Below, in pieces: positions 2,857 through 52,829 of a DNA stretch of 64,000 bases; the stretch's first letter is position 1, and each line of letters starts with the position of its first letter. A model generated the notes under the pieces. That model did no database searches. It was not told where the DNA came from and was given only the letters and a program-made list of their open reading frames with translations. A program made the translations under genes and the position numbers. The stretch is from Desulfobulbaceae bacterium (GTDB lineage Bacteria; Bacteroidota; Ignavibacteria; Kapaibacteriales; UBA2268): positions 35,771-99,770 of the forward strand of contig JAGXRP010000057.1 in assembly GCA_018335795.1 (NCBI GenBank), given 5' to 3'.

Positions 2857-2885
2857 GAAACGAAACGAAAAAAAAATAATAATTT

Positions 2886-2920
2886 AAAAAAAGTATTTGG
2901 ATATATCAAATACTTTTTTT
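2886..2920 (+). terminator. Rho-independent terminator after smpB
   Basis: A 14-bp perfect stem (2886-2899 pairing with 2907-2920) with a 7-nt loop. The stem begins with seven As and ends in seven Ts, so it can act in both directions. Its place just after smpB fits the end of the nadB-ABC-smpB transcript. Confidence 0.85.
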
Positions 2921-3042
2921 ATTTTGAAAAAGTTGTAAATGGTTCATTGAAAAAAGTTTTTCATGGTGTAAATAAAAACATTTAATATAGACCCGTAGCG
3001 GGTTCTGTGGTGTTTTCATTTATTAAATTTACTGGAGTATTT

Positions 3043-3135
3043 ATGAATCTGTCAGATGTACATAACAAGTACAAAAGTCGCGTTATGAGTACCGAGTACC
3101 GAGTACCGAGTACCGAGTACCGAGTACCACTTTAA
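3043..3135 (+). CDS. Possible 30-aa small ORF built on a heptanucleotide repeat
   Basis: ATG at 3043 with GGAG 6 nt upstream opens a 30-codon frame that ends at TAA 3135. The second half is encoded by the six GAGTACC repeats and reads STEYRVPSTEYRVP, because a 7-bp repeat gives a 7-codon period every 21 bp. I do not recognise the peptide. It could be a real small protein, a leader whose frame changes with repeat number, or chance. The good ribosome binding site is the only positive evidence. Confidence 0.3.
   Translation: MNLSDVHNKYKSRVMSTEYRVPSTEYRVPL
3087..3128. repeat. Tandem heptanucleotide repeat (GAGTACC)x6
   Basis: Six perfect head-to-tail copies of GAGTACC occupy 3087-3128. The array lies between the smpB terminator and a small secreted protein gene starting 33 bp downstream. 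Perfect copies imply recent slippage or selection, and a 7-bp unit changes the reading frame of anything translated through it. Confidence 0.95.
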
Positions 3136-38379: not shown

Positions 38380-40059
38380 ATGAAAAAAATCTACTTTGGT
38401 GATTGTTTAGATGTGTTGAAACGGCTAAATGCCGAATATCCGAAAGGATTCATAGATTTGGTTTACATAGACCCGCCGTTCAATTCAAAGCGGAACTACA
38501 ATGTTTTGTTTGAAGATATTGACCTGAAGGATACCAAGGCGCAGAAAGAAGCATTTGCAGATACTTGGAGCAATGTTTCTTATATGGACACAATGGACGA
38601 AATCAGGGGCTTGGATGATGATTTGTATGTGTTTTTGAATGCTTTGGATAGCATAAGGTTATCGAAAAGTGCTATTTCCTATTTAACCACTATGACGATT
38701 CGAATTTACTACATACACAAAGTCTTGAAAGATACCGGCAGTTTTTATCTGCATTGTGATTCTACGATGAGTCATTACTTGAAGTTAGTTTGTGATTTGA
38801 TATTTGGTGCCGGAAATTACAGAAATGAAATAATATGGAAGCGGACTAACAACCCTAAAGGTTCTCAATTTAAAGACAAAAAGTATGGTGTTTATACAGA
38901 TACTCTTTTGTACTATACTAAATCAAAGGATTATTATTTTGAGCTTGATAGCGTTCGTTCTTCATTGGATATGGATGAATTGTTAACCAAGTATCCTAAA
39001 GAAGATGAAAGAGGCAGGTATTTAGAATATCCAATATTGCGATCAGCTTCAAAGGGTGAAAGACCGAACTTGGTTTACGAATACAAAGGCTTCACTCCAG
39101 ATAAATGGGGTTGGGTAGTTAGAAAAGAGAAATTAATTGCTATTGACGAAAGAGGTGATTTAGCCTGGCGAAAAAACGGTATGCCTTATCGCAAATATCG
39201 TGTTGATGAAGATAGAGGTAGACCCGTTGGGAATTTGTGGGACGATATATTCCGCATTCAATCGAATGCCGACGAATCTCTCGGCTACCCTACACAAAAA
39301 CCTGAAGCCTTGCTTGAACGAATAATCAATGCGAGTTCGAACGAGGGAGACATTGTAGCTGATTTCTTTTGTGGATGCGGAACAACTGTAGCCGTTGCAA
39401 ACCGACTAAATCGGCAATGGATAGGTGCGGATATTTCACATTTAGCAATCAAACTTGTGCTTGAAAGGATTGCAAAACCACATGGAGAAATGGCTTCAAA
39501 AATATTAGCCGAGATTCAAATTGACGGATTCCCAAGAGATATTGCATCAGCGCGTGAATTAGCAACAGGCACGGATAAACATAGAAGTTTTTTCCAAGAT
39601 TGGATAATCGAGTTTAAATTAGGTGGTGTTAGTAATCCTAAAAAGTCAGGTGACGGCGGAAAAGATGGATATGTTACTTTTACGCGATTAGATGGAAGAA
39701 AGGGGGTTGCTCTCGTTGAAGTAAAATCCGGTGGAATCGGAATAGCTGATTTAAGAGCATTTATGAATGTTGTTGAAAGGCAAAAACCCGATATAGGTGT
39801 TTTCGTATGCTTTGAAAGTCACGTCACTAAAGGGATGTTGCATTTAGCAAAAGAAGCAGGGAAATATAAAATAGAAATCAACGGAGTGATTCAATCAACT
39901 CAGATTGATAGAGTTCAAATATTAACTGTAGAGGCGATTATGGGCGGGAATTCATTTGTATTTCCTATTACCGGATTGCCAACTCAAACATTTAAAAAAG
40001 CAACCAAAAGAACGCAGGTTGTAAACGAAGATTTGAACATGGATGAATTGTATGATTAA
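38380..40059 (+). CDS. DNA adenine/cytosine-N4 methyltransferase fused to a PD-(D/E)xK nuclease-like domain
   Basis: 559 aa. Motif IV DPPF at residues 31-34 precedes the AdoMet motif DFFCGCGTT at 328-336, the beta-class order; YPTQKPEALLERII sits just before. From about residue 405 a second domain appears: WIIEFKLGGVSNPKKSGDGGKDGYV, then ALVEVKSGG (E447, K449, with D429 upstream) and IGVFVCFESHVTKGML, an Mrr-like restriction endonuclease pattern. It may be a modification-cum-restriction enzyme or a methylase with a nuclease-derived DNA-binding domain. No separate restriction gene is adjacent. A strong terminator follows. Confidence 0.85.
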   Translation: MKKIYFGDCLDVLKRLNAEYPKGFIDLVYIDPPFNSKRNYNVLFEDIDLKDTKAQKEAFADTWSNVSYMDTMDEIRGLDDDLYVFLNALDSIRLSKSAISYLTTMTIRIYYIHKVLKDTGSFYLHCDSTMSHYLKLVCDLIFGAGNYRNEIIWKRTNNPKGSQFKDKKYGVYTDTLLYYTKSKDYYFELDSVRSSLDMDELLTKYPKEDERGRYLEYPILRSASKGERPNLVYEYKGFTPDKWGWVVRKEKLIAIDERGDLAWRKNGMPYRKYRVDEDRGRPVGNLWDDIFRIQSNADESLGYPTQKPEALLERIINASSNEGDIVADFFCGCGTTVAVANRLNRQWIGADISHLAIKLVLERIAKPHGEMASKILAEIQIDGFPRDIASARELATGTDKHRSFFQDWIIEFKLGGVSNPKKSGDGGKDGYVTFTRLDGRKGVALVEVKSGGIGIADLRAFMNVVERQKPDIGVFVCFESHVTKGMLHLAKEAGKYKIEINGVIQSTQIDRVQILTVEAIMGGNSFVFPITGLPTQTFKKATKRTQVVNEDLNMDELYD

Positions 40060-40470: not shown

Positions 40471-40629
40471 TTTTGTATGTTTATTTTAGTTTTAAAAAAC
40501 CGTCATAAATGCCCCTAATTTTGATTTATTTTTTCAAAGGATAGTTTGATACGTTTTTCGTATAAAAATTAAATCTACCCCTATATGCGTTAGAAATTTT
40601 GATATTTTAGTTTGCTTTTCAATGTAGCT

Positions 40630-41097
40630 TTAACTTGCTTTTTCAATATCCTCTACTTTCCAAGTGCTTTCAGAATCGTCCTTGTAAAGCCACTTTTTTA
40701 ACCACACTTCGGCTCTCCCTTGAATCATTACGCCGAGCCGATTTGATGCGTCATAGGTGACTGTGGCTCTTGCTACTGAATAGGGGGTGCCGTTGTATTT
40801 TGCCTTAGCTTCTAATAATTCCGCTTGTGATTTGCCGAGTTCGGTTGTAGTGTCAGGGTTCGCTAACCAGTCTTTATCTGTCATCATTGGATTGCCGAAG
40901 CCGTTGGAATCTAAAATCACAACTTCTGTTCCGGAGTTGTCATCATACGGCTCAAACTTTCCGCTACTTGGCGAAACAAGTGATTCCCTAACAGCTTCAC
41001 AAGCTATGTCGTAAACGGTTTCTTCTTCAGACTTCCCGCAGGACGCCAAAAGCATCATAGCAAACAATGCTAAAAACAAACTTTTCAAATACTTCAT
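40630..41097 (-). CDS. Prophage lipoprotein
   Basis: About 155 aa from ATG 41097 (GGAG upstream). Signal peptide with lipobox LASC (LFAMMLLASCGKSEEE). ACEAVRESLVSPSSGKFEPYDD resembles exported proteins with a 'lesions/charge' SPSSAKFP-type motif seen in phage and bacterial lipoproteins. Downstream (leftward) of the iteron-rich region. Confidence 0.7.
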   Translation of the reverse strand: MKYLKSLFLALFAMMLLASCGKSEEETVYDIACEAVRESLVSPSSGKFEPYDDNSGTEVVILDSNGFGNPMMTDKDWLANPDTTTELGKSQAELLEAKAKYNGTPYSVARATVTYDASNRLGVMIQGRAEVWLKKWLYKDDSESTWKVEDIEKAS

Positions 41098-41282
41098 TTT
41101 GCACTCCAAATTTTTGAATAAGCAAATATAGCATTTTCGTTTTAAACAACAAAAAATTTTTAAACCGGAGTTGAAAATCATACTCAAGAATTTTGCGAAT
41201 GCGAAATTCGGATTTTTTCTTTTATATTTCTTTATTTCTTCTTTTCTTTATTTCTTTGTCTTTGTATTATATTCTTAAGTTG

Positions 41283-41574
41283 TTGTTGTTTTTGAAAAGT
41301 GCAAACCTGAATACGCTTGCTAATAGCGACATCTCAGCCTTTTTTTGTTTGTTGTCCGTTTGTTGCGTAATGAAAATTACAATCCGTTGACATAGACCAA
41401 TACAGTGTTTTCAGTAATATTTTGTTTGTTGTTTGGGTGATGAAAATCACATCGAATTTGCATCGAATTTACATCGAAAATGCAGTTTGTTTGTTGTTTT
41501 GTTTGTTGTTTTTGAAAAGTGCAAACCTGAAAACGCATACTAATAGCCCTATTTCAGTTACATTTTGTTTGTTG
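41283..41574. repeat. Duplicated ~70-bp unit within the iteron region
   Basis: Positions 41283-41354 and 41504-41574 align: both have GTTTTTGAAAAGTGCAAACC, then ACGC, CTAATAGC, a TTTCAG/CTCAG-like stretch and TTTGTTTGTTG. Spacing about 220 bp. CCGATGAATAC is also repeated at 41646 and 41766. Confidence 0.8.
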
Positions 41575-41815
41575 TTTGTTTGTTGTTTGTTTGTTGTTTG
41601 TTTGTTGTTTGTTTGTTGTTATTGAAATTTTGCTCTCTTGAAACGCCGATGAATACACGCTACATCAAAGGTATTTTGTTTGTTGTTTTTTCGATATTTC
41701 TTAAAATCTGTGTGTTATTGTTTGTTATTTGTTTATCTTTTCGTGATTGATAATAGCAGATATTACCGATGAATACTGATTGTATAAGCATATTTTGTTT
41801 GCCTTTTGTTTGTTG
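41344..41815 (-). repeat. Iteron array B (candidate replication origin), 11-bp unit
   Basis: Minus-strand unit CAACAAACAAA. Five perfect tandem copies at 41564-41618; further full copies at 41344-41354, 41421-41431, 41486-41496, 41498-41508, 41675-41685, 41805-41815 and degenerate ones at 41358, 41718 and 41793, all in one orientation. Beyond the array (leftward) lies ACAACAACTTAAGAATATAA and an A/G-rich tract matching the segment after the iterons inside the replication initiator gene (52333-52375). Confidence 0.75.
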
Positions 41816-42007
41816 CAGATTTTTAGGATGCTGTATAGGACTGCCTCTTGGGGTGTGCTATGTATCTGTTTAATCTGTCAAATTTCTTAGTCTTGCCTAA
41901 TAATTTAACATATAGCAGAGATAGTAGATGAATAGGGAGTTACAAGGAATATGTAGTACAAAAGTAGTATCATATTCCCCAAATGGAGAAAATGATATAG
42001 CTTACTG

Positions 42008-42070
42008 CTTGACAGATGTCAAATGAACTGCTTTACACTTGTTAATTATTAATGGTTTACAGATGTCAAA
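42008..42070. promoter_or_regulatory. Three tandem operators at 23-24 bp spacing
   Basis: CTTGACA-GA-TGTCAAA (42008-42023), TTTACA-CT-TGTTAA (42032-42045, weaker) and GTTTACA-GA-TGTCAAA (42055-42070). TG positions 42017, 42040 and 42064 are 23 and 24 bp apart, like tandem phage operators. Same motif as 31467-31505 and 45303-45317. Confidence 0.7.
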
Positions 42071-42152
42071 TAAAGAGTATAAAAAACGCCCCAAACTATC
42101 AAGTATGGAGCGCGCGTTGCAAAGTGAATAGTGTTTTATAGATTAACCGCCG

Positions 42153-42599
42153 CTATCCTTCCTTAACTACTACGATTCGAGAGTTGCAAACCTTTTCAAT
42201 TGAGTTTCTGACATTCCAATAAGACTTATCACCTTTATTGTATTCATCGGAGCCATATCTGGGGTCTGTGGTGCTTACGACATTACCTAACCTATTCGTT
42301 TCATACATTAGTGATTTGTAAGTAGCAGTAATTTTGCCGTCACGAATATTAAAGTCCCAAATCATTTTAGCTCCAAAAGTCCCAGCAACTAACGGCGGTG
42401 AATCAATCTCTGCATTCAAGTAACCAATATTCTCATTAGCATTCTTAATAACGAAGTTGTTTTGCATAAGGATAGTTGTTATATCCTTGAAGATTTCAAC
42501 ATCATTCTTGTTGCACTCAGCAAGATTACGATATACAACCGGAGTGCAAGAACTCAAAATCACGGAAAAGATAACGAAAATAGCGAACAAATACTTCAT
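42153..42599 (-). CDS. Prophage lipoprotein next to the repressor
   Basis: About 148 aa from ATG 42599 (GGAG 6 nt upstream). Signal peptide with lipobox LSSC (VIFSVILSSCTPVVYRN). Mature region has TILMQNNFVIKNANENIGYLNAEI and MIWDFNIRDGKITATYKS, a fold-like pattern of small lipoproteins of unknown role. It follows the repressor gene on the same strand and is therefore probably expressed in the lysogen; superinfection exclusion is an inference. Confidence 0.65.
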   Translation of the reverse strand: MKYLFAIFVIFSVILSSCTPVVYRNLAECNKNDVEIFKDITTILMQNNFVIKNANENIGYLNAEIDSPPLVAGTFGAKMIWDFNIRDGKITATYKSLMYETNRLGNVVSTTDPRYGSDEYNKGDKSYWNVRNSIEKVCNSRIVVVKEG

Positions 42600-42647
42600 T
42601 TCAAACTCCATAAAAATTTAACATAGACAAAAATAACAATTTTCATC

Positions 42648-43313
42648 TTACAAATAATACTTCACCTCAATAGCAGTACCCAATATCTTAGTGTTATGGA
42701 ATCCGTTCACTTTGATTGTTTCATAATCCTTATTGTCCGATACTAAGTGCCTTGCATTATCTGCATCAATATGGACTCTTTTGCAGTACAGCACACCATC
42801 AACAATAGCAATAACGATTCTGTTATGAGTTGGTTCAGTGAGGTGTGTATCAAATATAACAATAGATTCATTTGGTATTGTGGGGTGCATCGAATCGCCG
42901 CTTATTCTAATTGCTTTATACCTTTCGAGCGAAAAAGCAGACGGCACTTCATAGGTAAAAGCTGACGGTTCAAAATCATATCCTTTTCCGGCATTCGCCG
43001 GCACAGGAAGTAATTCAATGTTTGTTCGTTTCGGATATACTACTTGCGGTTCGCTTACTACATTCGACGGTTCTTGAGTTGATTGCTTTAGTTCGGGCTG
43101 TAATTGCATATCACCTTCCCCGTACAACAACCATTTGATATTATACCCTAACTTTTCTAACGATGCAAGTTTTTCTAATGTAGGAGTGCTTACTCCATTT
43201 AACCATCTCGAAAGCAGGCTGTTTTGTAAATCGGCTGTCTTAGCGAGATTTGCAGGCTTTCCAAAGAAATCTTTGTCAATGATATAACTCAATCTTTCGT
43301 GGAAAGTTTTCAT
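42648..43313 (-). CDS. Prophage repressor: HTH plus S24/LexA-type peptidase domain
   Basis: 221 aa. N-terminal HTH (FFGKPANLAKTADLQNSLLSRWLNGVSTP), linker, then an S24 domain with catalytic Ser141 in SGDSMHP and Lys178 in YCKRV. Ala-Gly at 108-109 (PANAGKG) is the likely self-cleavage site, so RecA-stimulated cleavage would induce the prophage. A rightward promoter region lies upstream (43349-43403). It is the natural candidate for binding the shared operators, though this is unproven. Confidence 0.9.
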   Translation of the reverse strand: MKTFHERLSYIIDKDFFGKPANLAKTADLQNSLLSRWLNGVSTPTLEKLASLEKLGYNIKWLLYGEGDMQLQPELKQSTQEPSNVVSEPQVVYPKRTNIELLPVPANAGKGYDFEPSAFTYEVPSAFSLERYKAIRISGDSMHPTIPNESIVIFDTHLTEPTHNRIVIAIVDGVLYCKRVHIDADNARHLVSDNKDYETIKVNGFHNTKILGTAIEVKYYL

Positions 43314-43348
43314 AATAGAAAAAATATTGATATAATTAAAAATAATAT

Positions 43349-43403
43349 TTGCATTGTAGAAAATTTTGTTCTATATTTGAACTGCAATAAATTTGCATTG
43401 AAA
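43349..43403 (+). promoter_or_regulatory. Rightward promoter, copy 1 of a duplicated control region
   Basis: TTG 43349-43351, 20-bp spacer, TATATTTG 43372-43379, then AACTGCAATAAATTTGCATT. The same arrangement occurs at 44942-44998. It faces away from the repressor gene and into the antisense strand of the BRO fragment, so its present transcript has no obvious coding target. Confidence 0.65.
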
Positions 43404-43424
43404 TAATTGTTCTTTGAAAATCGG

Positions 43425-43667
43425 TTAAGCGTATTTTAATTTTTTCATCAATTTCATGCTTTGAAAGCCTCTGTTTATGGGGATGTCGTGAAACACAACA
43501 CCCCCCTCTTTACAGTGCCGGCTTATTGCATCGGAAGAATTTTTGTATCCTAATGCTTTGCATACATCTGAAGCAACAAACCAAATATCGTTGTTTATTT
43601 CGACTGTTTTGATTTCATTCAACATATTCTCTTCATCATTTTGATATTTAAAAACTACTAATTGCAT
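43425..43667 (-). pseudogene. BRO-N antirepressor fragment
   Basis: 80 codons from ATG 43667 (GGAGCAG upstream). EIKTVEINNDIWFVASDVCKALGYKNSSDAISRHCKE is the first half of the BRO-N domain found in phage antirepressors. It then ends early (GFQSMKLMKKLKYA), lacking the second half and the C-terminal domain. It could be a truncated gene or a small regulator; an inverted copy of its last bases (GTTAAGCGTAT, 43424-43434) occurs at 45014-45024. Confidence 0.65.
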
Positions 43668-43731
43668 TGTGTCTGCTCCTTTATAAGACGGTTTAAGGGT
43701 GACTATAAGTCTGAAATTACGCCTATAGGAA

Positions 43732-44517
43732 TCATAATTTATCAAGCAACTTCTTCTTTTGCTCACTAAATTCTTGCTCCGATAGTATCCCACTTTCATG
43801 AAGTTTGCCAAGCTTAGCGAGTTGCTCAAGTACGTCCGGCTCGGGTTTGCTTGTTATCACCGTCGGCTTTGGTTCTGATAGTTTATTCCTAATGAATTCT
43901 GCGAACTTTCGGGCAGAATTTTTATCTACATTTTCAATATTTGCAGTGTTCCCGGAAGTATGGATTTTTACTTTGCCAAATACCATGCCTGTTTCATACT
44001 GTATTGAGGTGATTTTATCTAAGGGGAAGTCTTCTACTTTTAAACCGTAGAGAAGTCCTTTGTCAACAAAAACGAGCCTTCTGTTTGTTGATACAAGAAT
44101 CCCTTGACCGTTATTGTAGGTCCCTTGAATGATATTGTCAATACTTTCATCTATGTTCAGGATTTCTGGGAGTTCGTTAATTTCTTTTCTCCCCCAAAAG
44201 GCAGAAGAATTATCAAGCCCAAGGCTTTGAATTTGGGTTCTGATTTCTACTAAACGCAAGCTCTGTTTATCTTTCTCGGTATCTAATAATGCTTTCCGTT
44301 CTAAAATCTCGGCGTTTTCTTTTTCTCGCTCAGTAAAGCTTTCCAGAATTTCAGCGAGAGTGTAACGTTTAAGACTTTTGGCGATAGTTGGATTAGCATC
44401 ATTTATTTTTTTAAAACAATTGAGGCATACTTCTTCACCACCTCTTATTTTCCCTGCACCGAAAGTGCGTTTATTGTTAGCAGTTAGTGCTATCGAACAC
44501 ATAATACAATTACTCAT
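43732..44517 (-). CDS. Zinc-finger, PH-like and SHOCT domain protein
   Basis: 261 aa. N-terminal CxxC pairs (NCIMCS and EVCLNCFKKI), a coiled middle (EREKENAEILERKALLDTEKD), a bacterial PH-like domain (GTYNNGQGILVSTNRRLVFVDKG, KITSIQYETGMVFGKVKIHTSG) and a C-terminal SHOCT motif (QLAKLGKLHESGILSEQEFSEQKKKLL). Such proteins are frequent near immunity regions of prophages; function unknown. Lies in the block between the two copies of the duplicated promoter. Confidence 0.75.
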   Translation of the reverse strand: MSNCIMCSIALTANNKRTFGAGKIRGGEEVCLNCFKKINDANPTIAKSLKRYTLAEILESFTEREKENAEILERKALLDTEKDKQSLRLVEIRTQIQSLGLDNSSAFWGRKEINELPEILNIDESIDNIIQGTYNNGQGILVSTNRRLVFVDKGLLYGLKVEDFPLDKITSIQYETGMVFGKVKIHTSGNTANIENVDKNSARKFAEFIRNKLSEPKPTVITSKPEPDVLEQLAKLGKLHESGILSEQEFSEQKKKLLDKL

Positions 44518-44546
44518 TATAGCCTCTATAATCTATTAAATTTTTT

Positions 44547-44957
44547 CTAATCAGATACATTTTTTGCTTGCAACATCACGATTGTTTTTTGCAGAATATC
44601 AATTTGAGCATTTAGATTGCTTATTTGCGAATCGTCATATGCGATATTCGCATAAGTCTGTCCGGTTAATAACTCATGTAAATCAATATTGAAGTTCTTG
44701 TATAGCGAAATCAGTATTTCAACAGCAATGTCAATATCGCCTTTCTCGAGTCTTGACACGTAGCTTTGCTGCAAACCGAGCCGTTCGCCAAACTGTTTTT
44801 GGCTAAGGTTCAACTTCATTCGCAAATTTACCAATCTTTCTCGCAACCCGTCAACGCCAGATTGGTTCTCGTTAGAAACGACATTTTTAATAATTTTTAC
44901 CCCAATTAAAAAAAAAAATATTCCAAAATCGAATTTTTTATTTGCATTGTATTCCAT
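44547..44957 (-). CDS. XRE-family transcriptional regulator
   Basis: About 136 aa. LRERLVNLRMKLNLSQKQFGERLGLQQSYVSRLEKGDIDIAVEILISLY is a clear helix-turn-helix of the XRE family; the C-terminus is a short coil (SNLNAQIDILQKTIVMLQ). The start is uncertain; ATG 44957 has no good ribosome site. It is divergent from the early operon and its start abuts the rightward early promoter, the classic place for a Cro/CI-type switch protein. Confidence 0.8.
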   Translation of the reverse strand: MEYNANKKFDFGIFFFLIGVKIIKNVVSNENQSGVDGLRERLVNLRMKLNLSQKQFGERLGLQQSYVSRLEKGDIDIAVEILISLYKNFNIDLHELLTGQTYANIAYDDSQISNLNAQIDILQKTIVMLQAKNVSD

Positions 44958-44998
44958 TATTGCATATATTTGAACTGTAATTAATTTACACATTGAAA
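44942..44998 (+). promoter_or_regulatory. Early rightward promoter (PR-like), copy 2 of the duplicated control region
   Basis: TTG 44942-44944, 20-bp spacer, TATATTTG 44965-44972, then AACTGTAATTAATTTACACA. Start expected near 44979, 100 bp before the first early gene at 45079. It would drive the long rightward early operon. Confidence 0.75.
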
Positions 44999-45078
44999 AA
45001 ACTTATTTGAAACATACGCTTAACTATTTTGAAACTGAATTTTAACTGTTTTTTATCAATTTTATAAAGGATTCTAAA

Positions 45079-45285
45079 ATGTCTAAAGTACAAAAGAAAA
45101 CTGCAACGCCCAGGCAAAACGCTTTTCCGGTTTATATCTCCGGTGCTTTGCGTTCCAGATTGCAAGAAGTAAAAGACTTCTTCTTGCTTACCCGTGATGT
45201 TCACGCTGCCTCCCATTGTGTCAAAGTCGGTCTTGAAATATTCAAAACAGACCCCGAAAGATTCAAAAAACTTGTAGCAATGTAG
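45079..45285 (+). CDS. Small early protein
   Basis: 68 aa: basic N-terminus SKVQKKTATPRQNAFPVYISGALRSRLQEVKDF then VHAASHCVKVGLEIFKTDPERF. First gene behind the early promoter, with AAGGA before the ATG. The pattern of a short strand (FPVYIS) followed by two helices suggests a ribbon-helix-helix regulator, but it is not certain. Confidence 0.55.
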   Translation: MSKVQKKTATPRQNAFPVYISGALRSRLQEVKDFFLLTRDVHAASHCVKVGLEIFKTDPERFKKLVAM

Positions 45286-45302
45286 CTCTTCATAACATTT
45301 TA

Positions 45303-45358
45303 CTTACAACTGTCAAACAAACTGATACAAACATAAACAAATTTTTATAATATAGCAA
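45303..45358 (-). promoter_or_regulatory. Leftward promoter with adjacent operator
   Basis: Minus strand: TTG (45358-45356), 20-bp spacer, TATGTTTG (45335-45328). Immediately downstream is the operator CTTACA-AC-TGTCAAA (45303-45317) covering the expected start region. The transcript would run antisense to 45079-45285 toward the XRE regulator gene. Confidence 0.55.
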
Positions 45359-45375
45359 AATCGTATAGCAAAACA

Positions 45376-45576
45376 ATGAATAAGAAAATCCGCAAAATAC
45401 TTGATAACAGAGAGATTTCAGGCAAATCAAAGGTTGCTATTATTGTCCGTGTTGATAGTGATTACAGAAGAAAATTGGATTGCATAAAAAAAGCTGAGAA
45501 CATCAAGTATGATGTTGATTACATCAGACAGATGATTGACGCACATTACAAATTAATTAAAGGAGATGTGTCATGA
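45376..45576 (+). CDS. Small early protein, possible RHH
   Basis: 66 aa: KIRKILDNREISGKSKVAIIVRVDSDYRRKLDCIKKAENIKYDVDYIRQMIDAHYKL. A basic start, one strand (KVAIIVRVD) and two helices would fit a ribbon-helix-helix fold. Overlaps the next gene by 4 nt. Confidence 0.5.
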   Translation: MNKKIRKILDNREISGKSKVAIIVRVDSDYRRKLDCIKKAENIKYDVDYIRQMIDAHYKLIKGDVS

Positions 45577-45842
45577 CAAGATTTGCGACAATCGAAGAAG
45601 CGTTCACCGATAACGACTGCAAAGCATTAGCAAAGCAACTTACAGCCCTTATCGTAAAACGTGAACCCTTTTCAAACCGTGATGAGTGCCTTGAAGCAAT
45701 CGGTGATGAGATTGCAAGCAAATCAGATGAAGCAGCAGGCGCACCGGTATCACTCTTTTTCTTTGTTGAAGTTGTTGCGAAATATGCTAAGAAAATGAGA
45801 CGTTTGATAAGGATTGGACGATACAGCGTAACGATGAGATAG
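45573..45842 (+). CDS. Small early protein
   Basis: 89 aa: RFATIEEAFTDNDCKALAKQLTALIVKREPFSNRDECLEAIGDEIASK then AAGAPVSLFFFVEVVAKYAKKMRRLIRIGRYSV. Helical. Not recognised. ATGA overlap and GGAGATG site upstream support translation. Confidence 0.5.
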   Translation: MTRFATIEEAFTDNDCKALAKQLTALIVKREPFSNRDECLEAIGDEIASKSDEAAGAPVSLFFFVEVVAKYAKKMRRLIRIGRYSVTMR

Positions 45843-45901
45843 ACTTATTTACTATACATACATAGAATCTAATAAAATTTATATAAAAAGCGAAAAGAGC
45901 C

Positions 45902-46237
45902 ATGGAAAAACCTGTAAAATATTCTAAAATCAGTACATCATACAATTTATCAAAAAAAGTAGTTGATGCAGTCGAACAACTTCTTATAAAAGAATATCCA
46001 AGCCTTAGCTTTACAGTTTTAGTTGAACATCTTGCATCGAAGCAAATCGAGAAAATAAGCGATAATGAGTTCGATGATATTGCTAAAGTGACTAAAAACC
46101 TTACGTTCACACGTAAATTCAGAAGCAAAATAGAGCAAATCGCTATTAAGCAAAGCGTAACAAGCCGTTTAACAGCTTCTGCAATAGTCAATCGCCTATT
46201 AGAAAAAAGTTTATTAGAAGGCAACAGCAATGATTGA
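45902..46237 (+). CDS. Small early regulator-like protein
   Basis: 111 aa with two similar helical halves: STSYNLSKKVVDAVEQLLIKEYPSLSFTVLVEHLASKQ and TFTRKFRSKIEQIAIKQSVTSRLTASAIVNRLLEKSL. Each has strand-helix-helix character, so it may be a tandem RHH DNA-binding protein. Overlaps the next gene by 8 nt. Confidence 0.5.
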   Translation: MEKPVKYSKISTSYNLSKKVVDAVEQLLIKEYPSLSFTVLVEHLASKQIEKISDNEFDDIAKVTKNLTFTRKFRSKIEQIAIKQSVTSRLTASAIVNRLLEKSLLEGNSND

Positions 46238-46514
46238 AAGATTCTTAACACCTAACCAAGTAGCCAAATTACTGCATATCCATTCTTCGAAAGTTAGGGA
46301 AGAAATGGATAACGGAAGGCTGAAATGTAAATATTTCGGCAGTCATCGCAAGACTACAGAAACTTGGGTCAAAGAATGGCAATACCAAGCAGACAATCAA
46401 AGTTGCAGTGTAGTGCAGAACGGCAGACCTGCAACAAATCATAAATCATTACAAAAAAGGAGTGTTTTAGATGTCGTTAAAAACCATCAACGACTACAGC
46501 TTCAGAACAATTGA
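46230..46514 (+). CDS. Excisionase-like winged-helix protein (MerR/HTH_17 type)
   Basis: 94 aa. ERFLTPNQVAKLLHIHSSKVREEMDNGRLKCKYFGSHRKTTETWVKEW is the usual AlpA/Xis-type HTH (TPxQVAxLLxxxxxxVRxxxxxGxLxxxxxGxxxR). It could be an excisionase, but no integrase is visible, so transcriptional control is equally likely. The end overlaps the next gene by 44 nt. Confidence 0.75.
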   Translation: MIERFLTPNQVAKLLHIHSSKVREEMDNGRLKCKYFGSHRKTTETWVKEWQYQADNQSCSVVQNGRPATNHKSLQKRSVLDVVKNHQRLQLQNN

Positions 46515-46833
46515 ACCAATGGCAGATTGGAATTCAGATATTGTTCTTGACCGTGACCTCAAAGGTAATCCTGTTACCAATGTGCCTCGTCGAATAATTC
46601 ACCATAGCCCGGACGGTTTTGAATGGGGATATGGCGGAAGTGGACCCTCAGACTTAGCTTTAAACATTTTATCGCTTTATGTCGGTGGAGAAATAGCATT
46701 TCAACATCACCAAACTTTCAAATGGATATTCTTGGCTAAAATGCCTATCACAGGCGGAATTATTCGCCAAGAAATCATCAAAACTTGGTTGGCATCCAAA
46801 GGCATTACACTTGAAGTAGGAGCATCAGTATGA
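46471..46833 (+). CDS. DUF6166-like protein
   Basis: 120 aa. Central block FEWGYGGSGPSDLALNILSLYVG followed by FKWIFLAKMPITGGII resembles the small DUF6166 family, which carries a WGYGGSGPADLALNIL signature. AAGGAG 8 nt before ATG. Function unknown; common in mobile elements. Confidence 0.65.
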   Translation: MSLKTINDYSFRTIEPMADWNSDIVLDRDLKGNPVTNVPRRIIHHSPDGFEWGYGGSGPSDLALNILSLYVGGEIAFQHHQTFKWIFLAKMPITGGIIRQEIIKTWLASKGITLEVGASV

Positions 46834-47207
46834 CAAAATTAGCTATCGAAGTTCAATCTATGCTGATGTCCGGAATTACTTATGAAGAAGCTTTTGAAGA
46901 ACTAAACAACACTTATCAATCACCTGTACTTGTTGAAATATTCAATGAATTCAGAAGCAATTATATTGATGATTTCCAAGTGTTCGCAAACAGCATGTCA
47001 AGCCTTAATGATTACGCTGAGTTCGCCGCCGGATATGCAAACAACATCAAAGTACTTTGTGAAAAAATAAGCACAGTTCACATTGATGAAGCCCCTCATG
47101 ACAACCACATAGAACATACAGAAGATTGCGACAAGTGTATACTTGAAAGCATAGACTACAACAATGAACAAAAACATTTACACAGTTATTATGGAGCAAC
47201 AAGATGA
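46830..47207 (+). CDS. Hypothetical early protein
   Basis: 125 aa, acidic and helical: LAIEVQSMLMSGITYEEAFEELNNTYQSPVL, YAEFAAGYANNIKVL, then HDNHIEHTEDCDKCILESIDY whose His/Cys residues could bind a metal. Coupled by ATGA on both sides. Not recognised. Confidence 0.55.
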   Translation: MTKLAIEVQSMLMSGITYEEAFEELNNTYQSPVLVEIFNEFRSNYIDDFQVFANSMSSLNDYAEFAAGYANNIKVLCEKISTVHIDEAPHDNHIEHTEDCDKCILESIDYNNEQKHLHSYYGATR

Positions 47208-47557
47208 TTAACTTAGGTGTAGCATTTAAGGATTTAATCACAGAGAATCTCGCAGATTTTGAATTTAATCGTGAAGTTGTTGGAGATGTTGAAATATGGA
47301 CTGACGAAGCACTAAACGATAAGCAGGGCTTTGGAATTTACTTCGTATTTCAGCTGAACGAAGATAACCAATTCAACGGTGAGTTCGCTATTCAGTTTAA
47401 AACACCGGACGATAGCCAATATTCAATTGGTTGGAATCTCTCCCGGCGAATAATAGAACTTATGGCATCGGGTGCAGATGAGTTTTCAAATGCATTACAA
47501 TTAATCGACGATGTTGGCAAAGATTTTAAGAAATTCAGCAAGAAGGTGGTACAATGA
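47204..47557 (+). CDS. Hypothetical early protein
   Basis: 117 aa: LGVAFKDLITENLADFEFNREVVGDVEIWTDEALNDKQGFGIYFVFQL and SIGWNLSRRIIELMASGADEF. Mixed alpha/beta. Not recognised. ATGA overlap on both sides. Confidence 0.55.
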   Translation: MINLGVAFKDLITENLADFEFNREVVGDVEIWTDEALNDKQGFGIYFVFQLNEDNQFNGEFAIQFKTPDDSQYSIGWNLSRRIIELMASGADEFSNALQLIDDVGKDFKKFSKKVVQ

Positions 47558-47811
47558 AAGCACGTAGAAGATTCAACTTTTGGTACTTCATACACCACGA
47601 TTTAAATAGAGTAGCGATGTATCTTGTATTTGGCATAGCATCATTCTTTGGGATGCTCTGCGGTTACAATCTCGCTACAAACGTAAATCCGCTTATTGAC
47701 ATATTCCCATTCTTTATGACAATTGCAATTCTCGGAATGGTCATAGGTGCAGGATATACAGTTTATAGCTTTTGGAAAGTATTTAAAATTTTACGTCGGA
47801 GCGGAAAATAA
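47554..47811 (+). CDS. Two-TM small membrane protein
   Basis: 85 aa with TM segments MYLVFGIASFFGMLCGYNLA and FFMTIAILGMVIGAGYTVYSFW, short basic ends. Early-operon membrane proteins may act in superinfection exclusion; nothing specific identifies this one. Confidence 0.55.
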   Translation: MKARRRFNFWYFIHHDLNRVAMYLVFGIASFFGMLCGYNLATNVNPLIDIFPFFMTIAILGMVIGAGYTVYSFWKVFKILRRSGK

Positions 47812-47814
47812 GAA

Positions 47815-47834
47815 AGCTCCCTGGCAGGGGAGCT
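47815..47834 (+). other. Intergenic hairpin
   Basis: AGCTCCC (47815-47821) pairs with GGGAGCT (47828-47834), loop TGGCAG, directly after the membrane-protein stop. No T-run follows, so it is more likely a processing or stability element than a terminator. Confidence 0.5.
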
Positions 47835-47912
47835 CTCTTGCTCAATCACTAAATTCAACCTCTCATGAGGCATTACAAAAAAAGGTATTACAAAAATAAG
47901 GAATTATATAAT

Positions 47913-49208
47913 ATGAAACAAACATTAGTAAAACTCGAAATCGAGCATGTTCTCGGAGTTAAGGCTGTGGCTCTGCCTATCAACGGAAAATCAGTATCAC
48001 TTATCGGCAAAAATGAAGCCGGTAAAACATCAATAATTAACGCTCTCGGTATAGCACTTGGGCAAATTAAGGACGGTAATCCAACTACAAATGGTGAACG
48101 TAAAGGAAGCGTAATTGCTGAATTTGATGATTACATCATTTCGAAAGAATGGAAAAACGGCAAAATGAATTCTTGGAAAGTTGAAGGCAAAAATGGCTCG
48201 AAAGAACTTCCGCCAAAAGAACTGCTTGACGGCTTTATAGACACAATTAGCTATCGTCCCGATGATTTCATCAATCGTAAAGCAAAAGAACGTCTGGCGG
48301 TTTTAGCTAAGGCAGTTGGCTATGATTTAGATGAACATAACAGACGATTTCAAGAAATTTACAATCAACGTACTGATATTGGACGTGACCGCAAAAAAAC
48401 CGAAGGCATTCTTGACAGTTTGAAAAGACCGTCAATTGATTGCCCGGAAAAAGAACTCAGCATTTCTACCCTACTCGCCGAACTCGAAGGCTACAAAGAC
48501 AAAGCTCGTGAAAGAAACAGTATTGATATTGATTTGCAAAGTGCTCAACGCATGGTTTCCGATATTGATAATGAAATAGCTCAACTTCAAACAAGATTGC
48601 AGGAGCTTACTGCAAAACGTGGTATTCAAAAAGACAAAATCGAAAAGTTGATTGTTGCTTTGAATGAACATCCGAACTATGACTATAACATCGAATCAGT
48701 TAATCAAAAGCTGACCAACATTGAGAAAATCAATGCAGAAGTTAGAGCAAAAGCACAGTATGACAAAACTAAGGCAGAATATGAGAAGTATGATTTTGAA
48801 TATGACAGAAAAACTGACGAATTGAACGGCATGAAAGACGGTTTAAGCTATAAAGTTAGCGAAGCGGGACTTCCTGACGGCTTTGAATTGATAGATGATG
48901 AGATTTATATCAATAAGGTACATTTCGATAAACTGAGCACGTTTCAGAAGCTTGATTTTGCAATGAAAATAGGCATGAGAATTAAGCCAACTGAGGGCAA
49001 ACCTTATACGCAAATCTTGTGCATGGATGTTAGCCAATATGACCAAGACAACCGTGCTAAGGTTCTTGAAATCGCCGAACAAAACGGTTATCAGGTTATA
49101 CTTGAAATCGCTCAGATTGCCAACGGCAAAGCACCATCGGAATTAGCGAAATCTGCTTGTTTCTATATTGAAGATGGTAGTGCAGAATTGTTAGAGGTGA
49201 CAGCGTGA
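47913..49208 (+). CDS. RecF/SMC-like AAA ATPase of a recombination module
   Basis: About 431 aa. Walker A in SLIGKNEAGKTSIINALG (residues 29-46) preceded by a strand-rich start, then a coiled-coil middle (QSAQRMVSDIDNEIAQLQTRLQE) and a C-terminal ATPase half with ILCMDVSQYDQDNRAKVL as the probable Walker B/D region. This looks like a small SbcC/RecF-type protein with a short coiled coil. It is coupled (GTGA) to a PD-(D/E)xK nuclease gene, suggesting a joint role in DNA end processing and recombination. Confidence 0.8.
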   Translation: MKQTLVKLEIEHVLGVKAVALPINGKSVSLIGKNEAGKTSIINALGIALGQIKDGNPTTNGERKGSVIAEFDDYIISKEWKNGKMNSWKVEGKNGSKELPPKELLDGFIDTISYRPDDFINRKAKERLAVLAKAVGYDLDEHNRRFQEIYNQRTDIGRDRKKTEGILDSLKRPSIDCPEKELSISTLLAELEGYKDKARERNSIDIDLQSAQRMVSDIDNEIAQLQTRLQELTAKRGIQKDKIEKLIVALNEHPNYDYNIESVNQKLTNIEKINAEVRAKAQYDKTKAEYEKYDFEYDRKTDELNGMKDGLSYKVSEAGLPDGFELIDDEIYINKVHFDKLSTFQKLDFAMKIGMRIKPTEGKPYTQILCMDVSQYDQDNRAKVLEIAEQNGYQVILEIAQIANGKAPSELAKSACFYIEDGSAELLEVTA

Positions 49209-50281
49209 AAACTGAATCAATAACAGCCTTTGAAGCGGTGTTCGGAAAAGATTACGAACGTAATGAATCTGTCAAAAACAACGGCTATGCCATCGTTGAA
49301 CCCGAACTTGTTATATTCGACCGTGATGCCTTAAAAGTAGCTCCACGCAAATTATACCGCTTTGATACAGACGGTAAACGTTGGTACTATGAATTCTTAG
49401 ACAGCATGAATACCGTTCCGATGTTTTATTGCGGTGTCACTTCATCAATTGCAAGTCTTGATTTGCTCCCAAGTTCGGAAGGTTTATATTTCTATTATAA
49501 CAAATTCTCATCCATGGAAGCCGCTAAACAAGATATGCAACGTAAAGCCGATTACGGTTCTTTTATTCATGTCCTGATTTCACGCTTTATAAAACTTCGG
49601 ACATTAGAATTTGCTGATATGGATGACTTAGTTGCTCTCTATAAAGCTCATTATGATTTGGATTACAGCAATAGACATTGGGCTGATAGAGCAATCAAGG
49701 ATTTGATTGCTGTTAAAAATTGGATGGACGACTACGAAGTCAAACCTTTAGCTACCGAATTGGTGTTACCCGGAAAAGACGGTTACGCAACGGCTGTTGA
49801 CTTAATATGTGAAATGACATTGGGTTCAGGGCAAAACTGTAAAGTCTTAAAGACTGACATCAAAAATGGTACAATGCAAACAGTTCGAGCCGCTATTGAC
49901 TTCAAGACAGGTGACGGATTCTACGAAACTCATGAAATGCAAATGGAAGCTGTGCGCAGAGTAGTTAATGAAAATCTGCCTGAATTGAAAGTTACCAAAA
50001 TGTTCAATGTTAGTCCTAAAGGGATTACCGATTTGAAATGTGAAATGAAAGACCAAACCGATAAAGTGACACATACGGCTTTGGTTAATGATGCTCCAAT
50101 TACCTATTTCGATTTGTATTGGGAAATCTTCAAAATGCGTAATCCAAACTTCAACAATCCTAGACATATCAACATTTTCAAAGGTTCAGTTTCGTTAGAT
50201 GCCCCCGCATCTGAAACCGTTCAACACATTTCACTCAATCCATATAACTTAGTAATCGAAAAACACAGGAGAGACCAATGA
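49205..50281 (+). CDS. PD-(D/E)xK exonuclease-like protein
   Basis: 358 aa, GTG start overlapping the ATPase stop. Conserved triad region: ATAVDLICEM (acidic), AAIDFKTGDGFYETHEMQMEAVRR (D-x-K then Q), preceded by ADYGSFIHVLISRF, a helix typical of RecB-like/Cas4-like exonucleases. Probably the nuclease partner of the ATPase gene. Confidence 0.75.
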   Translation: MKTESITAFEAVFGKDYERNESVKNNGYAIVEPELVIFDRDALKVAPRKLYRFDTDGKRWYYEFLDSMNTVPMFYCGVTSSIASLDLLPSSEGLYFYYNKFSSMEAAKQDMQRKADYGSFIHVLISRFIKLRTLEFADMDDLVALYKAHYDLDYSNRHWADRAIKDLIAVKNWMDDYEVKPLATELVLPGKDGYATAVDLICEMTLGSGQNCKVLKTDIKNGTMQTVRAAIDFKTGDGFYETHEMQMEAVRRVVNENLPELKVTKMFNVSPKGITDLKCEMKDQTDKVTHTALVNDAPITYFDLYWEIFKMRNPNFNNPRHINIFKGSVSLDAPASETVQHISLNPYNLVIEKHRRDQ

Positions 50282-51582
50282 GCATGAATTTAACACAAAG
50301 TAATATACCGGGACGCCTTGTCAAAAATCCCGAAAAACAACAATCACTAAGCAACAATTTGGGCTACAGCATAATAGGTAAAATCAAAATCGGAGAGAAG
50401 TACATCAGTAAAAACGGCAAAGAATTACCGCGAAGTATTGATTATTTCCGAGCTACCGGCGCATATTCGGAAGTATTTCATCAGAAATTAGGTGACAAAC
50501 CTAATATTCTTGAAATAGTGTTTCCGAGTGCAGACCATAGACAGGTGTGTTTTCAACGCATAGAGGGCAGGGATTCCAAAGGGAATCTCTGTGCTGTCTT
50601 TAATGGAGCGGAGTATTTTGTCTATGATACCGAAACGCAAAAGTATCTGTTATGCAGTCAACAAGAGTTTGAGAAAGCAAAACAAAACGGCATTAAGGTT
50701 AAGTCCGGATTCGGGGCAAATGAAAAAATCGAAATCGTCAAGATTGATAATTGGAAAGAACGGCTAACTATTCGATTCTTTGTTCTAAAGCTCCCCGGGA
50801 TACTTGGAGTTTGGGAACTATCCACAAGTGGGACCGAAACAGGAATTCCTAACATCATTCAAAATTATGATGATTTAGTGAAGTCAGTTGGTCAAAACAT
50901 CAACAAAGTAGTTTGCGAATTAAATGTAAAATTTGCTTCTTCAAACAAACCCGGTACGCAATCCAAATACCCTGTATTGCAAATGACACCTAACATAAGC
51001 TACGAATCTTCATTGTTGCTTAAGCAGTACAGCCAACAAGCTTCTGAATATAATTTGTTGTTAGATGACAAAGCAATATTTCAATTATCCTCAGGAAACC
51101 CTCCAGAAGCATCAAAACATCTGCAACTTGCTGAAGCAAACATTGAACAAATTGATGATGATGATGATGATTTTGAAAGTGTTGAAGTAGTAGAAGTAGT
51201 AGAAGTAGCAGAAGTTGTTGAAGAAGTAATCCCTGAAAAAACTGCAAAAGCTGATACAAAGAAGAAAAAGCCATTCACACCTGAGAGTTTCAAAGAGTGG
51301 GCTGTAAAAGATTCTGCCTTGTACGTTGAAAAAACTCCAACTCAGGAAATGCTTGTTAATGTAGCAACTGCTTTGAATCTCTATTCAAAAAACAATATGG
51401 AAGATAGAATCAAAGTACTGCTTTTCTTATTCGGCAAACAGAGCTTAGAATTATTGACTTATGGCGAATGCAGTACACTTCTAAAGTGGCTAAAAACGGA
51501 AAATGTGGACGGTATATTAATACCGAGTGACATGACGATTACGACACAATTTGAACAAATTATTAACGCAAAAGGAGAATGA
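50278..51582 (+). CDS. Recombination-module partner protein with acidic linker
   Basis: 434 aa. N-terminal ~280 residues are mixed alpha/beta (FRATGAYSEVFHQKLGDKPNILEIVFPS, CFQRIEGRDSKGNLCAVFNG, LTIRFFVLKLPGILGVWELSTSG), followed by an acidic stretch DDDDDFESVEVVEVVEVAEVV and a helical C-terminus. Unrecognised, but it is third in an ATPase-nuclease-X set; it might bind ssDNA, as acidic-tailed proteins often do. Confidence 0.6.
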   Translation: MSMNLTQSNIPGRLVKNPEKQQSLSNNLGYSIIGKIKIGEKYISKNGKELPRSIDYFRATGAYSEVFHQKLGDKPNILEIVFPSADHRQVCFQRIEGRDSKGNLCAVFNGAEYFVYDTETQKYLLCSQQEFEKAKQNGIKVKSGFGANEKIEIVKIDNWKERLTIRFFVLKLPGILGVWELSTSGTETGIPNIIQNYDDLVKSVGQNINKVVCELNVKFASSNKPGTQSKYPVLQMTPNISYESSLLLKQYSQQASEYNLLLDDKAIFQLSSGNPPEASKHLQLAEANIEQIDDDDDDFESVEVVEVVEVAEVVEEVIPEKTAKADTKKKKPFTPESFKEWAVKDSALYVEKTPTQEMLVNVATALNLYSKNNMEDRIKVLLFLFGKQSLELLTYGECSTLLKWLKTENVDGILIPSDMTITTQFEQIINAKGE

Positions 51583-51583
51583 A

Positions 51584-51886
51584 ATGAGTGAAGAAATGAA
51601 TCCCCAAAGTGGCAAATCCAAGTTGGATTTGTTAAATGATAAACACGAAAGAGGCTCTGCCGTATATACGGCATTAATTGCCGAAATGAAAGTAGTTAAA
51701 GATGGTCGCTTACAGCATGACTTGTACGAGACCTATGCTAATAGTCATCATTTTGACAAAGTCTTAGTATCGAAAGTGATCAAAAGCTGTATTGAATTGG
51801 AATTGTTTTCATCAGACGGCATCTGTTTCTGGGCGAATGATGCTATTGATGAAAAGCCGGAATTGGAATCAGACATCAACGATTAG
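51584..51886 (+). CDS. Hypothetical early protein
   Basis: About 100 aa from ATG 51584 (AAGGAG upstream). KSKLDLLNDKHERGSAVYTALIAEMKVVKDG and HFDKVLVSKVIKSCIELELFSSDG. Mostly helical with a winged-helix-like order. Ends 73 bp before the replication initiator gene. Confidence 0.5.
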   Translation: MSEEMNPQSGKSKLDLLNDKHERGSAVYTALIAEMKVVKDGRLQHDLYETYANSHHFDKVLVSKVIKSCIELELFSSDGICFWANDAIDEKPELESDIND

Positions 51887-51959
51887 GGATTGTATTGACT
51901 TTGTTTTTTTTTGAACTTTCGGAACGATATTGTTAAACTCGCAACAACAATGAAATTAT

Positions 51960-52829
51960 ATGCACGAAATGAGTGGTTGGGTAAAGATTCACAGAAGGAT
52001 TTTAGATTGGCAATGGTATCAGGACACAGTTGTATTTAGGGTGTTTGCGCATTGTATATTTAAAGCCAATTTTACTGATAAGGAATGGTTAGATGCTACT
52101 ATCAAAAGAGGCAGTTTTGTTACCTCTTTGCTAAAGCTGTCTGATGAAATTAAACTGTCAGTAATGCAGGTACGAAGGGCTTTAAATTGTTTGTCAAAAA
52201 CAGGTGAAATTTCGGTAAAAACAACAAACAAATATACGGTTATAAGTGTTTCTAATTACGACACTTACCAAGTTGAAATAACTGAAAAAGACAAACAAAA
52301 GACAAACAAAGAGCAAACAGAAGACAAACAAAGGACAACAACTAAAGAATATAAGAATATAAGAAAGAAAGAAGAAACTAACACAGGCGATAAAGTTCTT
52401 GTAAAAAACCTTTTTGAGCAATTTTGGCTTTTGTACGATAAAAAACTTGGGAAAGAAAAATGCTATTCTTTATTCTCGAAAATTCCTGAAAAGGAATACG
52501 TAAAAATCATTGACCATGTTCCGAAATATGTTTTAAGCACTCCGGACAAACAGTACCGCAAGAACCCTGAAACATATTTGCGAAATCGAAGCTGGAATGA
52601 TGAAATAGTAGTTGAAAAAGCGAAAACGTCGCCTAAGCAAAGTAAACAAAACGGTATTGACATGGATGCACTTGCGGAATCAAGAAGAAAAGCCGGATTT
52701 GGTGAAGACGTAATTATGAAATACGACCCACATCCAAACAATGACTTTGATTTATATAGAAACAACGAATTTGCAAAATTAGAAGAAATTACAGGAACTA
52801 AAAATGGGAACAATGCTGACAAAAATTGA
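51960..52829 (+). CDS. Replication initiator (phage replisome organiser-like) carrying internal iterons
   Basis: 289 aa. N-terminal winged helix (GWVKIHRRILDWQWYQDTVVFRVFAHCIFKANF, KRGSFVTSLLKLSDEIKLSVMQVRRALNCLSKTGEI), Lys/Gln/Thr-rich linker (residues 108-140), then a DnaD-like C-terminal helical domain (FEQFWLLYDKKLGKEKCYSLF). Such proteins bind the origin and recruit helicase loader. The linker codons contain four 11-bp iterons (52290-52332) followed by an AT-rich tract, so the origin probably lies inside its own gene as in lambda O. The next gene overlaps it by 26 nt. Confidence 0.8.
   Translation: MHEMSGWVKIHRRILDWQWYQDTVVFRVFAHCIFKANFTDKEWLDATIKRGSFVTSLLKLSDEIKLSVMQVRRALNCLSKTGEISVKTTNKYTVISVSNYDTYQVEITEKDKQKTNKEQTEDKQRTTTKEYKNIRKKEETNTGDKVLVKNLFEQFWLLYDKKLGKEKCYSLFSKIPEKEYVKIIDHVPKYVLSTPDKQYRKNPETYLRNRSWNDEIVVEKAKTSPKQSKQNGIDMDALAESRRKAGFGEDVIMKYDPHPNNDFDLYRNNEFAKLEEITGTKNGNNADKN
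52290..52380 (+). repeat. Iteron array A and AT-rich tract inside the initiator gene
   Basis: GACAAACAAA at 52290, 52301 and 52323 and GCAAACAG at 52313: the CAAAC cores are at 52292, 52303, 52314 and 52325, exactly 11 bp apart. An 11-bp period is not a codon multiple, so the repeat is kept at DNA level. It is followed by ACAACAACTAAAGAATATAA (52335-52354), a repeated GAATATAA and an A/G-rich tract, a likely unwinding element. Confidence 0.75.

Follow-up and report, generated by a model that had tools for sequence, protein, structure and literature searches.

The 64,000-nucleotide stretch of contig JAGXRP010000057.1 (Desulfobulbaceae bacterium; hereafter the window) contains a prophage that probably carries two initiator-binding origin modules for a single DnaD-like initiator, in a layout which, judged by sequence and by analogy, resembles that of phage SPP1. 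One module is an 11-bp iteron array inside the initiator gene, the other a larger non-coding array ca. 10 kb away, inverted in orientation and situated in the gap left of the repressor gene. Both are present, non-random and conserved, and they are retained together in one sister prophage, G001. From their make-up we infer initiator binding, unwinding, the firing of one or other module and a switch from theta to sigma replication. A sequence-only reading of the window had proposed a phage origin in the initiator gene together with a second origin-like array, an idea which sequence conservation, a family-wide 11-bp period and the SPP1 precedent support. The features concerned are listed below.

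41205–41286, minus strand: terminal motif ACAACAACTTAAGAATATAA (41267–41286) with purine/AT-rich tract; putative site of unwinding in the remote module
41289–41343, minus strand: spacer S6, 55 bp, S3 family, dyad less perfect (83-nucleotide repeat, 83% identical)
41344–41815, minus strand: remote array, 11 exact copies of CAACAAACAAA, conserved in G001 (70% identity)
41509–41563, minus strand: spacer S3, 55 bp, with a dyad (CTGAAA..GCTATTAG..TTTTCAGGTTTGCACTTTTCAAAAA)
41564–41618, minus strand: core of the remote array, five perfect tandem iterons (tandem-repeat and exact-copy counts)
51960–52829, plus strand: DnaD-like replication initiator/helicase loader gene (PHROG profiles, AlphaFold2 model)
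52222–52232, plus strand: single exact iteron CAACAAACAAA in winged-helix coding DNA (TTNK codons), 67 bp upstream of the in-gene array (the wing copy)
52289–52332, plus strand: in-gene array of iterons at an 11-bp period (consensus AGACAAACAAA; one copy is degenerate)
52335–52378, plus strand: terminal motif ACAACAACTAAAGAATATAA (52335–52354) with purine/AT-rich tract; putative site of unwinding in the in-gene origin

The remote non-coding array

Across the whole window CAACAAACAAA occurs 12 times exactly, against a shuffle expectation of 0.22, and none of 100 shuffles gets to 12. The remote region holds 11 of these copies, five of them in the perfect tandem core and the others scattered, as the sequence-only reading had described. 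Counted at up to one mismatch, the array contains 14 ACAAACAAA cores, set at steps of 11, 12, 42, 65–67 and 77 bp; its 66- and 67-bp steps recall the 67-bp offset of the wing copy in the initiator gene. No stop-to-stop frame of at least 80 amino acids covers more than half of the region, with three plus-strand open reading frames (ORFs) of 61–67 amino acids covering parts of it.

Read on the minus strand, the array ends in ACAACAACTTAAGAATATAA and a tract (41205–41285, 81 bp) that is 80% AT and 77% purine. The remote and in-gene modules have the same order of elements in opposite orientation, a correspondence that had been claimed from the letters and is borne out, with both sharing the ending ACAACAACTWAAGAATATAA followed by the purine/AT-rich tract. 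Used as a blastn query, the initiator's linker DNA finds the remote array in the window (E 1.2e-7) and also in G001 (E 8e-16).

Other identities for the region were considered and rejected. A structured RNA has no Rfam match across 40500–42700, and a promoter/terminator cluster finds sigma-70-type promoters and terminators not in excess, other promoter types not being covered. The regular spacers had prompted comparison with clustered regularly interspaced short palindromic repeats (CRISPR), a reading dropped because several spacers (the S3/S6 type) are related to one another. DnaA boxes number three in the window against 10.7 expected, with none in either array.

The initiator gene and its internal array

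The initiator matches PHROG 2514, 'DnaD-like helicase loader' (E 2.6e-31, residues 4–140), and secondly phrog_270, 'replication initiation protein' (E 4.5e-22). It is composed of a winged-helix N-domain (residues ca. 6–105), a low-confidence linker (107–142) and a C-terminal part. In the AlphaFold2 model the predicted local distance difference test (pLDDT) score, taken by tens of residues, is 88–95 for residues 21–100 and below 50 at 107–142, the site of the array, while the C-terminal part is poorly predicted. For the model Foldseek returned nothing at E ≤0.001; TubR, a plasmid segregation protein, was matched weakly (E 0.012). A second structure comparison placed generic winged helices in its top rows; near the top stand 4pql ('N-terminal domain of DNA binding protein', Z 9.0, 6.5 Å, 96 residues), 4pt7 ('Structure of initiator', Z 8.9, 7.2 Å, 97 residues) and 5kbj ('Rep-DNA complex', Z 8.3, 3.2 Å, 87 residues), with Z tied with CRP-type winged helices and two of the three root-mean-square deviations large. 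We take these three rows to be RepA_N proteins; RepA_N is absent from the initiator's Pfam matches at E 0.01. By sequence, nothing significant was found among solved structures (best E 0.54).

Within the gene, CAAAC cores lie at +71, +82, +93 and +104 counted from the TTNK codons, a spacing of exactly 11 bp, and are followed by the terminal motif and an A/G-rich tract, in agreement with the sequence-only reading; positions 52339–52400 are 73% AT and 71% purine. The sequence ACAACAACTAAAGAATATAAG is also found in the initiator gene of G001, and a looser form of the terminal motif is present in only 15 of 53 linkers of the initiator set described below, the window's among them.

An 11-bp period in the DNA

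The sequence-only reading had further argued that an 11-bp period cannot be kept by the coding frame, so that the DNA itself must be selected. The premise fails: an 11-bp DNA period can be encoded as an 11-residue (33-bp) protein period, for example QQTNNKQTTNK, and the argument is therefore insufficient without a codon-permutation test. The conclusion is supported for the initiator family, not for this gene alone. The initiator set was derived from protein-found loci, the best 80 of 305, leaving 54 after similarity reduction, 53 of usable length and 52 with a long-enough linker, the window's gene included. Of the 54 loci, three (L014, L180, L190) sit on contigs that the DNA-pattern search had also returned, and some of the genes seeding the query alignment came from DNA patterns, so that the set is not fully blind.

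With synonymous codons permuted inside each linker as the null, self-match at lag 11 over the 52 non-redundant genes is 0.535 against 0.499 (z 9.8). Relatives keeping the protein linker and not the 11-bp DNA period had been named beforehand as the outcome that would tell against the reading, which survives this comparison. A further peak lies at lag 22 (z 5.1), and lag 33 (z 3.7) barely stands out from the rest (lag 4, 3.3; lag 40, −3.5); individually, 14 of the 52 genes reach p <0.05 at 11 bp. When codons are instead drawn gene-wide, lag 11 rises to z 17.5 and 36 of 52 genes pass, most other lags rising too because codon use in the linker is itself unusual. A winged-helix control stretch, tested with the gene-wide draw only, gives z values of 0.8 (lag 11) and 0.7 (lag 22), with one of 53 genes passing.

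Exact iterons among the relatives occupy all three codon phases. Iterons of other letters, at the same place and with a best self-match of 11 bp, occur in Cellulophaga phi18:3, Staphylococcus IME1364_02 and Dulem virus 39, with Vibrio 1.133 less clear (22 and 11 bp tie); no null was applied to these four. A DNA-level 11-bp period is supported for the initiator family, not for the window's gene alone.

Conservation in a sister prophage

G001 is a prophage of a sister species in the same genus, with an initiator at 65% identity, and the window was compared with 60 kb around its remote array. The late genes (window 24.6–36.3 kb) are 88–91% identical and collinear, and 8.8–24.6 kb aligns only in part (67–97%). 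Across 36.3–59.76 kb, the blastn matches are confined to the remote array (41248–41813, 70% identity over 566 bp, E 4e-56) and its internal repeats, the initiator (51975–52616, 75%) and cross-matches of one kind of array with the other; three weak segments (23–28%) are added by tblastx rows longer than 40 residues.

The two remote arrays can be matched unit for unit, a correspondence that extends to the double site close to the end and to the ending with its tract, and the terminal motif aligns with the same motif in G001. The five-iteron core is kept, two of its iterons in G001 having a one-base core change. Spacers measure 54–56 bp in both phages, apart from one of 66 in G001, with conserved steps of 66, 67 and 77 bp there; towards the outside the arrays lose some of this regularity (steps 42 and 52). 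No more than a few hundred bp separate the G001 array from the late genes.

The prefix preceding the exact core differs in a concerted manner, being CA in 11 of 11 copies of the window's remote array and GG in eight of nine in that of G001. Linker prefixes are AG in the window and GG in G001, and the wing copies carry CA and CG, respectively. Such a concerted difference, seen in the G001 linker as well, would be expected where sites keep pace with a binding protein that changes, or where they are homogenised.

Spacers and dyads of the remote array

Spacers S3 and S6 share the motif CTGARA...GCTATTAG...TTCAGGTTTGCACTTTTCAAAAA, and these two and their G001 counterparts show clear kinship (z 10–14; mononucleotide shuffles, as for all spacer scores). 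Kinship to S3 is weak for S2 (z 3.8) and S5 (z 4.4) and is not found for the window's S4 (z ≤1.3). None of the spacers tested is akin to the wing-to-linker DNA of the initiator itself (z −2.0 to 1.8). The exact dyad occurs once in the window, a count equalled by 16 of 100 shuffles, and its case therefore rests on conservation. The combined spacer motif was found in no viral contig other than this phage's own. The spacers may be the site of a second protein or of a DNA bend.

Distribution among phages and genomes

The triplet (ACAAACAAANN)3 occurs in 20 viral contigs, inside a DnaD-like initiator in 13, as the remote array of this phage in one and elsewhere in six; in the host's class it occurs in one of 391 genomes, namely this one. 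The 22-mer CAACAAACAAACAACAAACAAA is present in 13 viral contigs (six in initiators, one as this phage's remote array, six elsewhere) and in 10 genome contigs (two in initiators, eight outside a recognisable initiator). Several of the pattern matches outside initiators resemble leader or low-complexity DNA. Three ACAAACAAA at 11-bp steps stand outside recognisable initiators in L107, L109, L095 and L108, the arrays of the last two lying before the first ATG of the reading frame, leader-like. Core clusters outside the called initiator ORF were seen at two of 80 loci (L120, L126), both with a short ORF call.

Iteron blocks are often 66–68 bp apart, in genes and in non-coding arrays, with steps of 55–59, 78–79 and 88–100 bp seen too. 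The pattern with a 65–67-bp step was found in four viral contigs, and at both places in this phage. In L099 (ca. 2830–3060 in the locus, minus strand) the initiator linker has two iteron blocks at a 68-bp step.

For the remote array itself, distant blastn of 41150–41850 against the phage collection gave no match, and the 18-mer GAAAAGTGCAAACCTGAA was found in two unrelated contigs in addition to this phage. A match at E 0.001 is present in 16 of 54 family genomes; 14 of these are short (≤78 bases), and the remaining two are this genome and G001. The IMG/VR contig 3300025525_000038 is identical to window 10078–61867 (100%) and was not counted as independent. Literature searches, judged by the titles listed, showed no published report of this array.

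Searching each locus with its own linker DNA, with flanks of up to 10 kb, gave a match at E ≤0.01 (best 2.4e-4) in 15 of 79 loci, a total in which this phage's own locus is counted. Flanks of that size would miss the window's remote array, and whole records were therefore searched. Among the whole viral records with such initiators (n = 29), a doublet match is present in 20, and in two separate places only in this phage, match positions having been compared with the initiator loci. On these matches a second array is likely to be rare, which is not proven because many records are fragments.

Weighing two origins against other roles

Several results weigh against two working origin modules. No second array was found among the 28 other viral contigs of 30–104 kb, of which 19 matched at one place each and nine, lacking any pattern match, are uninformative. 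A second copy of the own linker DNA was likewise not found in phi18:3, Vibrio 1.133, IME1364_02 or 50 of the 59.75 kb of Dulem 39, nor a second array in G101, G106 and G108; a G005 contig gave one 21-base match (E 0.007). As the other phages examined show no second array, it is not a general need of the initiator family, and G001 is the only independent relative known with a remote array. Similarity to G001 is also lost outside the early region, much of 8.8–24.6 kb being diverged or unaligned by blastn. The window's own gene is not significant against the codon null (p 0.37 within-linker, 0.17 gene-wide). The in-gene origin has no counterpart of the remote-array spacers, and the two arrays of the window are imperfectly matched because their prefixes differ (AG in the linker, CA in the remote array).

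Among other readings, the remote array may be the main origin, the in-gene array being weakened and kept as an autoregulatory or minor site, which we consider unlikely. It does have more, and more perfect, iterons (11 exact copies against four exact cores in the gene, wing copy included) and a more AT-rich tract, and the window's in-gene array is partly degenerate. However, other relatives examined have the in-gene array only, the natural origin candidate there, and this array persists in both sister phages.

Iterons of plasmid incompatibility limit initiation by titration or handcuffing, and the remote array could be such a locus, limiting initiation while itself being no start. Its many high-quality iterons near the repressor gene, with a prefix unlike the in-gene one, fit this role. 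The terminal motif and purine/AT-rich tract, needless for a pure decoy, are kept in both phages, however, and we hold the role to be quite improbable.

It is distinctly improbable that the remote array serves in partition, packaging, looping or transcription, its iterons resembling the origin by descent only. In favor of such a role are the conserved, dyad-bearing spacers, which suggest a second DNA-binding protein, the weak TubR matches of the initiator model and the position of the G001 array close to the late genes. Against it stand the terminal motif and tract common to the remote and in-gene modules, retention of the array with the initiator while most early DNA is unalignable, and the lack of a sigma-70-type promoter or terminator excess (the types covered) and of an Rfam match.

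The option, raised by the sequence-only reading, that the array is what is left of an earlier initiator gene, decayed and without function, is contradicted and can hardly be true: the motifs common to both arrays and the weak tblastn matches of initiators to it (best E 4.9e-6), some beginning in the winged-helix part (L136 residues 70–138, E 5e-5), are set against spacing, a five-copy core and several spacers conserved across species and spacers unrelated to the initiator's own, and the matches are explained because iterons alone reach them (with iterons kept and spacers shuffled, six of 40 arrays gave an equal best match, and nine of 40 an equal match starting before residue 89). An ancient duplication of the in-gene module could still be the source of the remote array. 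The remote module of the two-origin layout may serve in firing, fork stalling or initiator titration.

A model for two modules and one initiator

In the proposed in-gene origin, the linker DNA would double as the code for a flexible protein linker and as an array of 11-bp iterons, with an A/G-rich tract for unwinding after it. The remote module would be a larger, stand-alone origin laid out largely on an 11 × 6 bp grid, in which 11-bp iterons, spacers mostly of 54–56 bp (some with the conserved dyad) and the five-iteron central block lead to the terminal motif and the tract. The winged-helix domain would bind the ACAAACAAA iterons at both places and the purine/AT tract would open. By analogy with SPP1, theta replication would start at one module, and initiator on the other may provide a second or late start, a titrator, or a fork barrier feeding recombination-dependent (sigma) replication.

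A more specific version, possible but doubtful, is that the remote element represents a new, composite design of stand-alone phage origin, in which iterons and dyads are set on a 66-bp (6 × 11) grid and a second protein sits on the dyads. A long, phased initiator complex would then be a fork trap or late origin setting the switch from circle to concatemer, and the element would evolve with the initiator, being kept with it when most other early DNA is exchanged.

Origins of the in-gene kind are known, and SPP1 offers a precedent for the layout; what is new is the composite stand-alone module with its conserved spacers. Protein and DNA selection are hard to separate in this initiator family because the origin appears to be written inside the gene; a non-coding module that has iteron core, step and ending in common with it would let the DNA and protein roles be tested apart. 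If true, the arrangement would be a further case of the SPP1 two-origin layout, in an unrelated phage. The DNA rule, namely 11-bp linker iterons, in many genes with a copy 66–68 or 78–79 bp upstream and often with purine-rich DNA at the end, can be of help in flagging candidate origins in uncultured phages whose initiators are DnaD-like.

Neighbouring genes and other repeats

Ten early proteins of the window were searched against families, and the genes at ca. 8.8–36.3 kb were called structural from translations alone. The phage also encodes an exonuclease (phrog_298) and a RusA resolvase. Upstream of the initiator, beside an exonuclease-like gene and one small ORF, lies a gene (50278–51582) matching PF18897, a Gp3-like recombination directionality factor (E 4e-21). 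The protein at 57669–58343 combines a DUF1937/deoxyribosyltransferase-like part with a DnaA C-terminal helix-turn-helix (PF08299, E 7e-13), and in phi18:3, too, a gene annotated as DnaA protein (PF08299) lies close to the initiator. Inside the prophage, 38380–40059 encodes an N4/N6 DNA methyltransferase with a C-terminal Mrr/inactive-restriction-nuclease-like domain. At 3087–3128 the 7-bp unit GAGTACC is repeated in six perfect copies.

Comparison with known replication systems

The origin of phage lambda lies in gene O, with iterons and an AT-rich tract inside the initiator gene; initiator and iteron length differ from those of this phage, and lambda is not known to have a second array. Phage P4 has two distant iteron sites, ori and crr, for one initiator, the primase-helicase alpha, and neither site is known to lie in the initiator gene.

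In phage 80alpha an ORF20 mutant is described as not complementable in trans, which its authors took to mean that the gene has an origin embedded in it (PMC5499656). The likeness is that of an origin in an initiator gene of the same broad type, the family profile scoring 80alpha ORF20 at only E 3.7e-5 and the DnaD protein of IME1364_02 at 2.6e-40. Self-match in the 80alpha repeats is best at 30 and 15 bp (no null), unlike that of the 11-bp iterons here. In plasmid pSK41 the origin boxes are described as central in rep, in DNA which encodes the linker (PMC5703833). RepA_N initiators of this kind share with the present one a winged-helix N-domain and, if the linker iterons act as an origin, central origin boxes in linker-coding DNA; unlike this prophage, pSK41 is a plasmid with one origin, and the RepA_N family gave no Pfam match here.

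The nearest parallel is SPP1, which according to the published accounts has two origins ca. 12–13 kb apart and alike in organisation, oriL within gene 38 and oriR intergenic (PMC6316719, PMC3485210). Both are described there as direct repeats with an AT-rich unwinding element, with binding by the initiator G38P reported, and initiator bound at oriR is proposed to stall forks and start concatemer replication, the theta-to-sigma switch still being a model (PMC6316719, PMC3485210). Unlike this prophage, SPP1 is a lytic Bacillus phage, and the likeness drawn here is one of layout, by published description. In that layout the repeat array inside the initiator gene corresponds to the linker iterons described here, and the second, distant intergenic element of direct repeats and AT-rich tract corresponds to the remote module, located ca. 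10 kb away and conserved in G001.

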